From Chondrilla cf. caribensis (Eukaryota; Porifera; Demospongiae; Chondrillida; Chondrillidae): a stretch of DNA of 64,000 nucleotides. Below, piece by piece: positions 40,354 to 58,880 of the stretch. Each line of letters begins with the position of its first letter. The stretch's first letter is position 1. Under the pieces are notes generated by a model that saw only the letters and a program-made list of their open reading frames with translations, did no database searches and was not told the DNA's origin. Position numbers and translations under genes: made by a program. The stretch covers positions 5,981,719-6,045,718 of the forward strand of contig OZ026549.1 in assembly GCA_964020155.1 (NCBI GenBank), given 5' to 3'.

Positions 40354-52146
<11,793 letters not shown>

Positions 52147-52198: not shown

Positions 52199-52247
52199 AT
52201 AAAATGGGTGTGTCTTTTTATGGGCGTATCTGGCGTGCAATTCGAAA

Positions 52248-52998
52248 ATGGAGACTGCAGTAACGTTCGGTCAAGCGCAGTACGATGACGAGGAGCTGGA
52301 CGACGGTGTGTGTGTGTGTGCGCGGTGGACGTGCCGTTCAGTACAGCACTAGCTGTTGTCTGTGTCGCTGCATGCTCGCTTCACCCTGTTCTCTCGCGTT
52401 GTGTGCAGACATGGAGCTCCCGGAGGAGCTGCGGGGGTCCATCCCTCAGGGACCCGTCAACCCTTTCGAGCAAGTACCCCAGAAACCGTCAAGATCTGCT
52501 TTCGTGGTAGATCCGACTGCTTTGGCTGGAAAACTCGAACAAGAAAGAAGAGAGAAAGACCTCCTGGAGGACGAGGATGAGACGGAGGAAGAAAGTAGCC
52601 TCGAATACGAGTCAGATATATCCATGGACCGCATCGCCCCTCATGTTAGCACAGACGAGGTTAAAGTGCGCAAGGATAGGGAGGTGTTCTGGACATCAGA
52701 CCCACAACAGCGTTAGTCTATCACTCTGGTTAGTTGCACGAGGTTGTGGTGTTGATGGTGAGTTCATTGAATAGCATTTGACCTGGATATTGGAGAAAAA
52801 GGACTGTCTGCTGAAGAACCGAAGACCATTCCGGTATTCTTTAAAGAAATTGTCAGAGAGCATCCGAAGGTGACAGCATTGAAGTGGAAGGAAGGAGATA
52901 GAGTGGTCAAGTTGACGTATGAGGAATATTGGGACAAAGTGGTTGCTGTCGGCAGGTCCTTTATCAAGGTGAGGATGGAGCAAGCAGACATGAACAGC

Positions 52999-53067
<69 letters not shown>

Positions 53068-55089
53068 GTGTTTGTACCTTGCAGGAGTGATCCAATCAGT
53101 CAACTCATTTCAAATATGCCTCCACTCCCTATAGCATGGGATTTATCGATTCTGTTGTGTGTGCATTATCGGAAAGACATGCCCTGAATGGTATTATACT
53201 GCTTTGGGAGCCATTTTGACTGGGTAAGACCCCTTAATTACTAATTGTAATAATAGGCTTACTAGCCAGGATTCACATGTATTGTGATGTAGAGGTATGG
53301 TCATGGCTGTCCCCCCCAATGCTACCACTGAAGAGTGTCTGTCAATATTGAGCAGCTGTCGAGCTAGCATCTGTGTAGTCGAAGATATGGAACAGTTTGA
53401 GAAAGTGTTTAATGTGCGTGAGTTTGCCTTGGGGATGGAGGAATTGAAGTTGAATGTCTTCTGTTGTCGTTGCCATGGCAGCAATGGCATCACATGCCTC
53501 ACCTAAACTGTATGATGATTTGGAAGGAGAAGTTGCCAGAGCCCCTCAACCGCGTGTACAAGGTAGACCAGCTCTGTTGATTGTCACCAGTAGACGATGT
53601 GTTTACTGGATCTGTTTTGTAGTGGGAGGAGTTCTTAGAAAAGGGTGTATCTATTGGCTATGATGCAATTGATGTGGAAATATCCAAACAAGACCCCGCC
53701 CACGCAGCTGTCCTTGCTTTCACAGTGAGTACAGTTGTGCCCTATCCTGCCATGTGTGCATGTGTGTAGCTCTTGCCTTCTGCACTCCATCAGAAGAGGT
53801 CAGGGGATGAGATGAAGAAGATCATGTTGACGCATGATAACGTGAGCATCCATGTTCACTGGATTGTGTAATCATTTAGCTGTTTTGTGAAATATCACTG
53901 TATTATTGCATCACAGATTGTCTGGACAACTAAGGCTCTGTACTCCTCCTACCAGGAGGGACTTCACAGAGGAAAGGAGAGCTTTCTTAGTATACTGCCG
54001 CCTTGTCATATTACCAACATGGTGAGTTGCTGGAAGGATTACTGTTGTCATGACTACACTCAATTTTTCCCACGATTAGCTAATGGAGATATTCCTCCCA
54101 TTGCGGCTGGTTGGCTGTGTCAAGTTTGCTCCAATGACTGAGGAGACCAGCTTGTTGTCAACTCTGAAGGAGATGCAGCCAACAGTTTTCTTTGCAGCTC
54201 CAAGGTGCGCTGTGAACTAGTTCACTGTCTTGTTATTGTTGGACCACAAGTCCAGTAGAAGTTAGCACTCCAGTCATGGGTGCCGTCCTTGTCCGCAATA
54301 CCTAATACGTATGACTTAATAGCTTGATGTTTATTGATTTAGACAATTACACACGTCACTTGTTGGCTAATTATTTGCAACGGTCATGTTAACGGTGGTT
54401 GTCACACATAGTTTTGTAAACATTGCCTGAAGAAGCCCAAGTGGGCAAAACATTGCGATTAATTTGCCAACAAGCGATGTGCGTAATTGTCCAAATAAAT
54501 AAACACCAATCTATTAAGGTTTAGCATGTCAACTAACTTCTATCAACTTATCTGTTCATCATTCACCTCTAATCGTACATCAATTTGAAGACCTAAATAT
54601 CTGGCATTTATTGCAAAGTTGTCCTGTGGTTAATGTGCACCTATTTTGCAAGTGATGTGGTGGGTGTGGTCAATGTTGCCCATTCTCAATTGTATTAGTG
54701 TTTGGGAAAGACTGATGTTGGAGACTAAAACAGCTGACAAGAAGAAAACAGTCACCAAAAAGGTTTACCAAGTTTTAGGGGTTGTCCCTTGATGTGCTTT
54801 AATTGGATAAGTTTTCATCACAGATGTTGGGACTGTCCCACTGTCATCTAGCAGCAGTTGGGTCAAGTCGTGTGCCAGAAGAGGTTACCAATTACTTCGG
54901 TGCTTCTCGTCTGAAGCTGAAGGAGATCTACGGGAGTTGTGAGACCACCGGGGTAGCCTCCCTCAACACACTGGACACTGCACAGTCCAGGACAGGCACC
55001 CAAGGATGGCCGCTGGAGGGAGCTCAGCTCATCATTGAGAATGTGGATACAGTTGGGAATGGAAAGGTGTGTGTATGCATCTGTGTGTG

Positions 55090-55165
<76 letters not shown>

Positions 55166-56580
55166 ACATGTGTCTGTCTGTCTGGTGCTTGGATATTATG
55201 TCTACATATTGTTATTATTATCATTTGCACATTTGAACATTAAATATTAGCCATTACACTGCCCTTGACGTGACCTTGGTCACTCCTTCCAGGTAGTGGT
55301 GAAAGGACGAAATATATTTTGTGGATATCTCCATCAGAAGGAACTGACGGAGAAAGCCTTCAATGAAAGTGGATGGTATAACACTGGAGACATCGGGAAG
55401 AGAGACGACAATGGATTTCTTTGTGTTCTTGCAAAAACTGAAGGTACAAACATGTGTGTTTTGTGTACCTACAAGCATGTTTGTGTATGTGTGCATATCA
55501 GCATGTTGTGTGTACTTATTCACATGTTCGTACATCAATGAAGTGTACACAGTTATGTGCTAGGATGAAGGTACTCTGTTGTGTACACTGTCAGAGCTCA
55601 TCAAGACTTCCAGTGGAGAGTATGTGTCCCCTGAGCCCATTGAGGCCATTGTGAAGGGTTATATCCCTTTCCTGGGTCATGTGATGATCGTCGGGGACAA
55701 CATGAAGTACCTCACCTGTTTACTGTCACTGAAGGTATGAGCAGTAGGAACATTGGTGTGCGTGTGTGTGGTGTGTGTGTGGTGTGTGTGTGTGTGTGGT
55801 GTGTGTGGTGTGTGTTGTGTGTGTGTGGTGTGCGTGCGTGTGTGTGTGTGTGTGTGGTGTGTGTGTGTGGTGTGTGTGGTGTGCATGATAACCCAACCAA
55901 CTCCCCATCCCCTCTGATTTATATTTTGACCACGCCCACTCTCCCTTTTGAACAGTGTGCATTGGACCCAGAAACAGGCGAGTCCACTGATGACCTGACG
56001 GAGGATGCAGTCGAGGTCATAAGGACACTCTACGGCAGAAACTACACTAAAGCCTCTGAGATATTAGAAGCGGATGATGAAGCCATTAGCAAAGCCACAG
56101 TGTATGGGATCACCCAGTACAACCAGAAACATGCTCTCTCCTACAACCAGAAGGTGGGAAGACTAGGCTAATTCATCCTCTGAGTATATGTTCACCAACT
56201 TGGTCTCCTGTAGATTCTCAAGTTCCACCTCCTGGACAGCGACTTCACTGTGGCTGGTGGAGAGCTGAGTGAGTGCTTGACTAGAAGGCATGACCATCTG
56301 TGACCTTATCAAGATGCACAGAGTTTACTACACGTGATCTCACACACAAAATTAATTACATGCATATATGTACTTTGTGGCCACACCTCATTTCATGACC
56401 ACACCCTACTTCATGACCACACCCCACTGTATGACCACACCCTACTATATGACCACACCCACTTCATGACCACACCCCACTTCCTGTCCCACCTCCACAG
56501 CTGCTGATGGTAAAATGATACGTAAAGTCATCCTCGAAAAGTACCAGGATGAGATCGAAGACATGTACGATGAAGAATGA
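52248..56580 (+). CDS. Bubblegum-type acyl-CoA synthetase with degenerate AMP-binding loop
   Basis: 17 exons: 52248-52305, 52409-52711, 52775-52968, 53135-53223, 53293-53413, 53482-53562, 53623-53724, 53794-53841, 53917-54021, 54080-54204, 54699-54762, 54824-55066, 55293-55443, 55595-55734, 55956-56153, 56214-56268, 56501-56580; 718 aa, in phase. An acidic N-terminal extension of ~120 residues precedes an ACSBG-like fold (VFWTSDPQ, CPEWYYTALGAI, LPPCHITNM, APRSVWERL, EIYGSCETTG, YNTGDIGKRDDNGFL, SPEPIEAIV, FTVAGGELTADGKMIRK). The motif that should read TSGTTGxPKG reads TKRSGDEMKK, losing the phosphate loop. A following ~55-residue helical segment is absent, and the GR pair of the GRxKE motif is AK. 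ACSBG enzymes activate long-chain fatty acids with ATP and CoA. This copy has a normal fold but is probably inactive as a ligase. Confidence 0.88.
53000..53062. repeat. (GT)n microsatellite
   Basis: About 30 GT dinucleotides in the third intron of the acyl-CoA synthetase gene, 30 bp after the donor. Confidence 0.95.
54328..54505. mobile_element. Inverted-repeat element (MITE-like) in an intron
   Basis: The left end (TGTTTATTGATTTAGACAAT...) and the reverse complement of the right end (TGTTTATTTATTTGGACAAT...) agree at about 45 of 52 positions. Between them lies a smaller perfect hairpin, GCCCAAGTGGGC. The 178-bp element has no ORF. No clean target duplication was found, so superfamily is open. 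Confidence 0.6.
55088..55162. repeat. (GT)n microsatellite near a 5' splice site
   Basis: About 33 GT dinucleotides beginning 22 bp after the donor at 55067, which itself reads GTGTGTG. Confidence 0.95.
55760..55885. repeat. Imperfect (GT)n/GGTGTGTG tract
   Basis: About 120 bp of GTGTGTG blocks separated by GG, in the intron before the conserved C-terminal exons of the acyl-CoA synthetase gene. Confidence 0.9.
56380..56490. repeat. 18-bp tandem repeat, about 6 copies
   Basis: Units ATGACCACACCCCACTTC with small changes, in the last intron of the acyl-CoA synthetase gene. Confidence 0.9.
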
Positions 56581-56629
56581 ATATACCTCTTTACATAACA
56601 TATACTCACTGTTTTAATGTACATTTGAT

Positions 56630-56635
56630 AATAAA
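56630..56635 (+). terminator. Poly(A) signal of the acyl-CoA synthetase gene
   Basis: AATAAA 50 bp after the stop. The convergent VMA21 stop is only 40 bp further, so the two 3' ends nearly or actually overlap. Confidence 0.65.
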
Positions 56636-56675
56636 GTCTGTATGCATTAAGAATACATCAATCAAAGCATGTCAT

Positions 56676-57105
56676 TTACTCTAGCTTCTGCTGGTCCAGT
56701 TTAACGTTCTTGTCCTCACTCCATGCAACATAGATATAAATTCCAATGACAATGTGAACAGCGATGACAGCTGCAACAGCACCACCTAATGACCCGTCTT
56801 CCTGACCAAAGATACCTACACAAATTGCATTTGTTTTATGCAAACAAAAAAATGCTATTTACAAGTAATAAGCAGTGTGGGCATAAATGATGCTAAAGAC
56901 ACCTTTTGGAATCATTACCTTCGAAAATGAATTCTTTAAATATAAAAAGTGCTGCTAGTGGTATAACTACGATTGCTAAAGTGAATAAGAGAAGTATTCG
57001 AACTGTTCGGTTGGTCACCGGGTCCATAATCAAGCTCAGCGCGTTCGACCGTGTTTTAACGTCACCGTGTGATACTAAAACGTTCCATAACGTGGTTCTG
57101 AACAT
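56676..57105 (-). CDS. VMA21: V-ATPase assembly factor VMA21
   Basis: Two exons, 57105-56919 and 56815-56676, encode 108 aa. Two membrane spans are clear: [20 protein letters not shown], then the conserved KEFIFEG loop, then [20 protein letters not shown] with WSEDK after it. Order and spacing match VMA21, an ER protein that chaperones assembly of the V-ATPase membrane sector. The tail ends QQKLE and has no obvious dilysine retrieval signal. A second in-frame Met (MDPVTNR) 27 codons in could be the true start, giving 81 aa; human VMA21 has 101 aa. Convergent with the acyl-CoA synthetase gene and divergent from NIPA. Confidence 0.9.
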
Positions 57106-57135
57106 GCTTCCGGAATCCCGGAATTATTCATTAGG
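57106..57135. promoter_or_regulatory. 30-bp divergent promoter core, VMA21/NIPA
   Basis: Only 30 bp lie between the outermost ATGs of the two genes. It contains GGAATCCCGGAATTATTCAT and no TATA box. If both ATGs are used, transcription start sites must lie within the opposite gene's first exon or within these bases. Confidence 0.6.
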
Positions 57136-58880
57136 ATGGCACCCATGTTGTCTGAAGGTCCCAGTGTGATGAGCTCTCCTGTCCCGTGTTTGAACCCCTC
57201 CCTGGACGCTGTGGAGGGATCTGGTGCGTATATGAAATCAGGGACGTACTGGCTCGGTCTCGGGCTGTCGATCAGCTCCAGTGTGTTTATTGGAGCGAGT
57301 TTCATTATCAAGAAGAAAGGCCTTCTCAGAATCTCTAGGGACTCAAAGAACAGAGCAGGTATACGTAATTGCTGTAAGTCTGTCTCAGCGTTGTCTTACG
57401 TCTCTCTCTCTGGCTCCAGGTAGTGGTGGTTATGGATATTTAAGGGAGCCCCTCTGGTGGGTGGGGCTATTAACAAGTGAGGACACGCCCACACAACTAC
57501 TGGCCACTTAGACTTCCATGTGACTGAACATAGTGTTGATGTTGCATGTGTGCTATTGTCCACTGCAGTGGGGATTGGCGAAGCAGCCAACTTTGCGTCA
57601 TTTGGACTAGTACCAGCAGTTCTAGTGACTACCTTGGGAGCTCTTAGTGTCATTGTTAGGTGAGTTGGCTTGTTGGTCCTCACCCGCCAAGAGGTATTTG
57701 GTTGGTTGATCCTTACTCACCTGGGTTTGGTCACTGCTAAGCTTAGCCTTGTTCTCTTCCAGTGCCATTTTGGCTTCTCTTATTTTGAATGAAGTACTGA
57801 ATATTCACGGGAAGATTGGCTGTTTGTTGTGTATTCTTGGATCCACTGTTGTTGTTATTAATGCACCTCCTGAGAGGGCCATATCAACACTGGAGGAGAT
57901 TGGAGTAAATATAATAGATCCAGGTGAGTCTGTCGACCATTACCTTATGGTGTGGAGTCATGTGTGGTAGTGTGTGTGGATGGATGTGTGGATGGGTGTG
58001 TGTGGGTGTGGGTGTGGATGGGTGTTTGGATGTGTGTGTGAGTGTGGCTGAGTGTATGGATGGGTGTTTGGATGGGTGTGTGGATGGGTGTGTGGATGGG
58101 TGTGTGAGTGAGTGTATGGATGGGTGTTTGGATGGGTGTGTGGATGGGTGTGTGGATGGGTGTGTGGATGGGTGTTTGGATGGGTGTGGATGGGTGTGTG
58201 AGTGAGTGTATGGATGGGTGTTTGGATGGGTGTGGATGGGTGTGTGGATGGTGTGTGGATTCCTATATCACCAACAGAGACACACCTCACTTTTCTTTCT
58301 CCTTCCTCCAGTATTCATCATTTATTGCATGTCAGTTGTGGGGCTTGGGCTGTATCTAATGTATGTGGTAGCCCCTGTTCACGGAACCACCAACATTCTC
58401 ATCTACATTGCTATCTGCTCACTCCTGGGATCACTCACAGTCATGTCTTGTAAGGGAGTCAGCATCGGGATCATCCTCACTCTCCATGGCAACAACCAAA
58501 TATTTAAACCTCTGTTCTGGTTTCTTTTGGTCACCATGGTGACCAATATCACCATACAGATGAACTACTTAAATAAAGCATTGGATATCTTCAACACGGC
58601 ACTGGTCACTCCTATTTACTACGTAATGTTCACTTCTCTCACCACGCTTGCTTCAGCCATTCTCTTCAAGGACTGGGTGAATGTGTCACTAACAGAGATT
58701 ATCGGCTCTGTTTGTGGATTCCTGGTCATCATTGTCGCTGTGTTCATCCTCAATGCTTTCAGAGAGATAAACATTACACTGGATGACATTAGGAACTCTG
58801 TTCAGGTCTACAGACGCACACAAAGTAGAATGATGATGGATGAAATTGATCAGAACGGGGTAGTGAAGGAAGAACCGTAG
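57136..58880 (+). CDS. NIPA2: NIPA-family magnesium transporter
   Basis: Five exons: 57136-57358, 57420-57476, 57569-57659, 57763-57923 and 58312-58880, 366 aa, in phase. Landmarks are [20 protein letters not shown] with the following [57 protein letters not shown] and [20 protein letters not shown]. About nine hydrophobic helices are seen. NIPA proteins move Mg2+ across the plasma and endosomal membrane. The ~40-residue N-terminus before the first helix and the charged C-tail ending in KEEP are poorly conserved. Family member (NIPA1 to 4) cannot be fixed; the symbol is a best guess. Confidence 0.9.
57965..58258. repeat. GGATGGGTGT-based minisatellite
   Basis: Units of TGTGTGGATGGG and TGTTTGGATGGG, with a higher-order block ending GTGAGTGAGTGTATGGATGG repeated three times, fill the last NIPA intron. 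Confidence 0.9.

Follow-up and report, generated by a model that had tools for sequence, protein, structure and literature searches.

The question raised by this locus is whether its acyl-CoA synthetase-like gene still encodes an enzyme. The original prediction held that the ATP-binding loop had been rewritten within an otherwise maintained fold and that the product is likely a pseudoenzyme. Positions given below refer, unless a contig is named, to the window, that is, the whole 64,000-nucleotide stretch of Chondrilla cf. caribensis DNA that was analysed. Kinases and phosphatases include well-documented pseudoenzymes; for acyl-CoA synthetases such proteins seem to be little reported. No paper whose subject is a pseudoenzyme acyl-CoA synthetase or adenylate-forming protein was found by title and the beginning of the abstract, and nothing was found in the searched portions of the literature on inactive bubblegum proteins, sponge ACSBG, pseudoenzymes of sponges or linked to long-chain fatty acids, His511-type changes or inactive adenylation domains. 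In a sponge, acsbg2 is described as overexpressed in females in the available part of the source (PMC9012834).

Gene model and domain composition

Re-splicing of the locus gave a gene on the forward strand at 52248-56580 with 17 exons and GT-AG introns, open and in phase throughout and encoding 718 codons plus a stop, in agreement with the exon count and open frame originally described. The features to which the argument refers are the following.

52248..56580, forward strand: complete coding region of the divergent ACSBG-like gene (GT-AG model; 718 aa; co-linear with the relative P0001)
52248..52305, forward strand: exon 1, which opens the N-terminal extension (METAVTFGQ.QYDDEE common to P0001)
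52409..52711, forward strand: exon 2, remainder of the N-terminal extension, conserved up to residue 72 and followed by an acidic variable stretch
53623..53724, forward strand: exon 7, ending in LAFT with the leading Thr316 of the loop (length of 102 and phase match exon 7 of the paralogue)
53725..53793, forward strand: intron 7, without an alternative loop in any frame and ending in a tandem CAG/AAG acceptor
53794..53841, forward strand: exon 8, the rewritten phosphate-loop exon, KRSGDEMKKIMLTHDN (gene model, paralogue and homologue alignment)
53842..53916, forward strand: intron 8, without an alternative loop in any frame
53917..54021, forward strand: exon 9, A4 region LPPCHIT with His363 kept
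54699..54762, forward strand: exon 11, shortened, with the Arg of PR(I/V)WEK replaced by Ser409 (gene model, alignment and paralogue)
54824..55066, forward strand: exon 12, A5 motif YGSCETTG, with the Mg-binding Glu470 kept and the Ser/Thr that contacts the alpha-phosphate replaced by Cys469
55293..55443, forward strand: exon 13, A7 motif NTGDIG and A8, with the ribose Asp544 kept and the invariant A8 Arg replaced by Lys559
56501..56580, forward strand: exon 17, A10 region TADGKMIRK, with the catalytic Lys697 kept (Gln in P0001)

When the window protein was searched with Pfam, PF00501 (AMP-binding) matched one stretch only, residues 143-524, at 156.5 bits (cut-off 29.9), and PF23562 (C-terminal domain) scored 36.1 bits against a cut-off of 20.8 that no single stretch alone reaches.

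Long GT microsatellites lie in introns of the gene at about 52998-53062, 55094-55161 and 55757-55883. Intron 10 contains a MITE-like element (54315-54518) with 66-nt arms that are 85% complementary and 72 nt apart, for which at least 84 matching rows, many of them partial, were found on many contigs of the genome. The neighbours are a two-exon VMA21-like gene on the reverse strand (56679-57120; E 2.3e-07, above the cut-off, and 3.1e-06, just below it) and a NIPA magnesium-transporter gene on the forward strand (57484-57967; E 9e-15 and 1.4e-08), and for a frame upstream, ending at 52146, the match was no more than weak (E 0.072, under the cut-off).

The rewritten phosphate loop

Exon 8 encodes KRSGDEMKKIMLTHDN where the family has SGTTGxPKGVMLSHDN, and the protein across the 53724/53794 junction reads LAFT, KRSGDEMKKIMLTHDN and IVWTT in succession. 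The A3 motif T-S-G-T-T-G-x-P-K-G has become TKRSGDEMKK in the window protein, so that over T-S-G-T-T-G-x-P-K only Thr316 and Lys324 are identical, one Thr is replaced by Ser319, and the two glycines of the loop have changed along with its second Thr and its Pro. T-S-G-T-[TVS]-G is present in 27/27 aligned canonical homologues. The alignment of the exon to the family is ungapped, as was originally claimed, along with the survival of the leading Thr and the Lys alone.

Six-frame translations of introns 7 and 8, inspected by eye, contained no canonical loop, and a scan of the three forward frames of 52201-56700 with the pattern [ST]G[TS][TSV]G gave no match. The acceptor of exon 8 is a tandem CAG/AAG, which allows the exon to begin at 53794 or 53797, the second site dropping just one Lys. 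A shifted acceptor was rejected as a source of the loop, the one in-frame alternative within 15 nt merely removing that Lys, and an alternative loop exon in intron 7 or 8 was likewise rejected, none having been seen. Translations, pattern scan and acceptor check thus agree with the earlier statement that no other splice choice in 53725-53793 supplies TSGTTG, and no canonical loop exon that a transcript might include was found at the locus (introns 7 and 8 and the forward frames). The tandem acceptor at 53794/53797 could yield two protein forms that differ by one Lys.

A canonical paralogue with the same exon structure

The genome was searched with an ACSBG homologue and the matches were assembled, yielding a canonical ACSBG paralogue of 16 exons and 746 aa (G000:C4:6065150-6068905) on the same strand and 26.9 kb downstream of the window gene (C4:6033966-6038298). 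This paralogue carries the motifs YTSGTTGPPKGVMLSHDN, GRIKELI and GPTLKLKR and the loop SGTTGPPKG. Exons 3-8 of the two genes are equal in length (194, 89, 121, 81, 102 and 48 bp) and identical in phase, and exon 14 (140 bp) also agrees in both respects. Because the lengths and phases of exons 3-8 match, exon 8 is homologous to the 48-bp exon of the paralogue and has been rewritten without net indel, and because the same exon of the paralogue encodes a canonical loop, the alignment of the loop is not a product of chance. When exons 3-8 were compared without gaps, 318/635 nucleotides were identical between the genes and 7/30 over the first 30 nt of the loop exon; segments of 30 nt with seven or fewer matches numbered 4 of 606, all of them beginning no more than 3 nt from the start of that exon. 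Further downstream, exon 11 is short and the counterpart of exon 12 of the paralogue is absent, leaving 37 codons fewer than in exons 11 and 12 of the paralogue.

In a tree of 12 sequences and 599 columns, in which two rows were stitched from pieces and some outer-group branches are weak (42, 48, 59 and 68), the pair formed by the window protein and P0001 adjoined the C4 paralogue with a support of 99, its stem measuring 1.07 substitutions per site compared with 0.225 for the C4 paralogue. Judged by its sequence, the window gene is by descent an ACSBG-type (bubblegum-type) acyl-CoA synthetase which, as an enzyme, lacks two of the defining ACSBG features that were tested, the A3 loop and the A8 Arg.

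Several other copies were encountered in the genome. A further copy on C5 has the canonical loop AGTTGPPKGVMLSHDN, and a third paralogue is present. In the N-terminal extension of the C4 paralogue, exon 2 (L029:4313-4582) contains a head-to-tail array of roughly nine units, each encoding EEKQPV. Eight AMP-binding matches lie within 74 kb at G000:C5:4113692-4187765, and in four of them a single open frame (481-623 aa) spans almost the entire domain; this cluster differs from the intron-rich ACSBG genes, and one of its members, L001, has SGTTGLPKGVMLSH.

An independent relative, P0001

The sole close relative in the protein database (44 matches among 7993 scored candidates) was P0001, whose 719 aa are encoded on a public contig of 4365 bases. 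It is 77% identical to the window protein over the full length (555/715 aligned residues), the gaps being two short ones within the acidic part of the N terminus and a single residue at the very end. A profile search with both proteins gave 60 matches and no further close relative among the 7994 most word-sharing candidates that were scored, and the group has two known members. P0001 is very probably a spliced transcript, since its 719-codon frame is unbroken while the window gene has 16 introns, and being co-linear with short gaps only it therefore supports the gene model. Searching the genome with P0001 recovered the window gene exon by exon; a second genomic copy matching P0001 better was sought and rejected, as nothing closer was present among the scored candidates, and the two are therefore most simply regarded as orthologues.

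The loop of P0001, NGSTGLVKKVMLTHDN, is altered too, departing from the consensus at Y315, S317, T319, P323 and G325. The departures at 317, 319, 323 and 325 are common to both proteins, and the window protein departs additionally at 318, 320 and 321. The alteration is unequal between the two lineages, P0001 keeping Gly, Thr, Gly and Lys (NGSTG). A frameshift of this exon in relatives had been named at the outset as evidence against a maintained protein; P0001 aligns gaplessly over exon 8, and the exon is hence not frameshifted there.

These comparisons bear on whether the altered loop could be an artefact of assembly, sequencing or splicing, with a canonical loop that exists and was missed. 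The gene is represented by one assembly only and the acceptor of exon 8 is a tandem CAG/AAG, both of which would suit such an explanation. However, introns 7 and 8 are without an alternative loop, exon 8 differs from that of the paralogue by many substitutions with zero net indel, and P0001, an independent sequence, is also off consensus at the five loop positions listed above, so that an artefact is considered extremely improbable.

Residues required for catalysis

Long matches with both Pfam domains were picked by hand, 28 of the 103 proteins returned being aligned; among the 27 canonical homologues P0003 is from a fly and the other named organisms are bacterial. Index residues were taken from the accessible text of a superfamily survey (PMC6122825) and mapped onto the window protein by motif and spacing. 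Five residues are reported there as invariant in 374 sequences (E490, G573, D624, R639 and K740). Each protein keeps four of them, R639 being replaced by Lys559 in the window protein and K740 by Gln in P0001, which keeps the A8 Arg; the A8 Arg and the A10 Lys are both kept in 27/27 canonical homologues. At index 489, where the hydroxyl of Thr327 contacts the alpha-phosphate (PMC6122825), 27/27 homologues have Ser or Thr, the window protein has Cys469 and P0001 has Ala. That P0001 has lost a Lys, a different residue from that lost in the window protein, fits a gene in which selection for catalysis has ceased.

Residues kept in the window protein include Thr316 and Glu470 (Mg), Asp544 (ribose), Tyr466 (adenine side) and the loop Lys324. 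The original statement that the downstream motifs are kept holds for Glu470 of A5, Asp544 of A7 and Lys697 of A10. Three further changes were absent from that description: Cys469 within A5, Lys559 in place of the invariant A8 Arg, and the shortened exon 11.

The loop positions altered in the window gene include some that are costly as single substitutions elsewhere, as given in the accessible text of the same survey (PMC6122825). In 4-chlorobenzoate:CoA ligase, replacement of Gly by Ile at index 324 cost 1000-fold in activity and replacement of Pro by Ala at index 329 left no detectable activity (PMC6122825 Table 2). In an E. coli acyl-CoA synthetase, replacement of Gly by Ala removed 75% of Vmax at index 324; at index 327 the loss was 42% of Vmax, and kcat/Km rose slightly (PMC6122825).

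Conservation in at least 85% of the 27 homologues was found for 85 columns, a set that includes the trivial first Met and some columns that are not ACSBG-specific (column 570 is Glu in the ACSBG paralogue too). The window protein and P0001 each keep 47 of these; 32 differ in both proteins, six in the window protein alone and six in P0001 alone. Shared and private losses together indicate that departure from the catalytic consensus predates the split and then continued differently in each lineage.

The loop (315-323) is also the most diverged of the 707 nine-residue segments compared between the window protein and P0001, with 7/9 residues different; under random placement, the probability that at least six of the nine motif positions differ is 0.005. 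Over 11 loop positions the two proteins differ at seven, compared with 0-1 (mean 0.03) in 37 canonical pairs of at least 55% identity, which come from a small number of related-sequence clusters and so are not independent, and with no more than four in 90 canonical pairs of 20-30% identity. The A10 region is loose as well, 5/13 positions differing as against 0-3 in the 37 canonical pairs. Apart from the loop, residues 593-602, encoded by exon 14 (55595-55734), are the sole core stretch with 6/9 differences.

A ligase that is still active, with an unorthodox loop that positions ATP regardless or with another activated substrate, would account for the changes as adaptation to a new substrate. 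It would be consistent with the retention of Thr316, Glu470, Asp544, Lys324 and Lys697 in the window gene, with the NGSTG loop of P0001 and with the partial activity kept by some single loop mutants of other enzymes (PMC6122825, accessible text). However, the window gene combines changes at both glycines, at the second Thr and at the Pro of its loop with the loss of an invariant Arg, and P0001 is without the A10 Lys that all 374 survey sequences keep (PMC6122825). Nor would adaptation be expected to remove different universal residues in each lineage and to make the loop the most variable part. Retained ligase activity is therefore judged quite improbable.

The N-terminal extension and the reading frame

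Residues 1-72 are identical at 64/72 positions between the window protein and P0001, and residues 73-112 at 18/38. The N-terminal extension is thus conserved above average (8/72 differ; hypergeometric P 0.008). When residues 1-135 of P0001 were used as the query against 391 candidates of similar length sharing exact words, P0001 alone was found as a relative of the extension. The extension contains an NPF tripeptide (GPVNPFEQVP). NPF tripeptides are ligands of EH domains, and a putative EH-domain ligand in this position is offered as a lead.

Neutral evolution was simulated up to 160 amino-acid differences, and 0/300 runs remained stop-free (8.7 stops on average, and never fewer than 2). In the two proteins the frame is uninterrupted from end to end, which bears out the original view that this is not a decaying pseudogene. 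The fast evolution of the catalytic motifs and the long stem branch could be taken as signs of early, functionless decay. However, no stop or frameshift interrupts 718 codons of the window gene or 719 of P0001, which no simulated run achieved at equal divergence, the extension is conserved above average, and P0001 resembles what we take to be a spliced transcript, making a pseudogene very improbable. Conservation of the frame and of the extension suggests a retained function.

The fold was examined with an AF2 model of P0001, calculated from a 28-sequence alignment that otherwise consists of canonical enzymes and by which the fold is partly imposed, with a mean pLDDT of 81.2. The pLDDT values are low in two segments (1-50 and 81-131), and a helix is predicted for residues 55-80. 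In a Foldseek search with this model, the best 50 of 1925 matches were adenylate-forming enzymes or domains.

Interpretation

A pseudoenzyme is an enzyme homologue without residues required for catalysis, and the window protein is one in this sense. The original pseudoenzyme reading is supported by a locus without a canonical loop, an open frame and a relative that lost a different catalytic residue. The window gene is very likely a conserved ACSBG pseudoenzyme that arose as a tandem duplicate and was kept for what we infer from its sequence to be a non-catalytic role. The gene is a duplicate of an ACSBG gene in which the loop has been rewritten, without net indel, inside the homologous exon, and different essential residues have been lost in the two lineages with preservation of the reading frame, the core and the N-terminal extension. 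The beta/gamma-phosphate loop and one alpha-phosphate contact are gone, and we infer that no acyl-AMP is formed at a useful rate. Binding of a nucleoside or acyl-CoA-like ligand without chemistry may persist, because residues on the ribose, Mg and adenine sides are kept. Most likely, the product would be a binding or scaffold protein acting through its conserved extension, with possible modulation of lipid activation by the active paralogue, as is known for FAM20A acting on FAM20C; any partner or ligand proposed at this stage is a guess.

A more specific proposal, which we hold to be unlikely though less so than continued ligase activity, is a dedicated sensor that would keep the adenosine/acyl-CoA side of the pocket, would have discarded phosphate chemistry and would control, through the lineage-specific and strongly conserved extension, lipid activation by the active ACSBG enzyme whose gene lies 27 kb away. 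No longer constrained by catalysis, the loop would then diverge faster than any other part and may constitute a new interaction surface.

The altered gene and a canonical one of matching exon structure stand together at a single locus, and in a relative the altered gene has lost a different essential residue. With these copies and P0001 the order of the losses and the retained role become directly testable.

Comparison with known systems

In exons 3-8 and 14 the C4 ACSBG paralogue matches the window gene in length and phase, and it resembles it also in the introns flanking the loop exon, in A4 and, in part, in A5 and A7. The window gene differs from it in being without the canonical loop, the A8 Arg and the A5 Ser/Thr, in a region corresponding to exons 11 and 12 that is 37 codons shorter and in its N-terminal extension, the two proteins being 40% identical over 562 aligned columns. 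P0001 has the same N-terminal extension and shortened region and shares the departures at 317, 319, 323, 325, 409, 511 and 561; it differs from the window protein in keeping NGSTG and the A8 Arg and in having Gln at the A10 Lys.

FAM20A and FAM20C are a pseudokinase-kinase pair in which the dead paralogue activates the live one, according to the available text (PMC5865150). They provide a model for a dead paralogue beside a live one, although the fold differs and an interaction in the present case would be purely hypothetical. The FLD2 of DIP2 is an adenylate-forming domain with degenerate motifs for which loss of adenylation has been suggested, in the part of the source available (PMC9342972), and it is alike in being retained in eukaryotes though adenylation appears lost. 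Membership of the DIP2 family was rejected, as the window protein has one PF00501 stretch and not two domains. DIP2 carries two adenylate-forming domains per polypeptide, of which FLD1 is active (PMC9342972, same text), whereas the window gene encodes a single domain and lies near a separate canonical paralogue.
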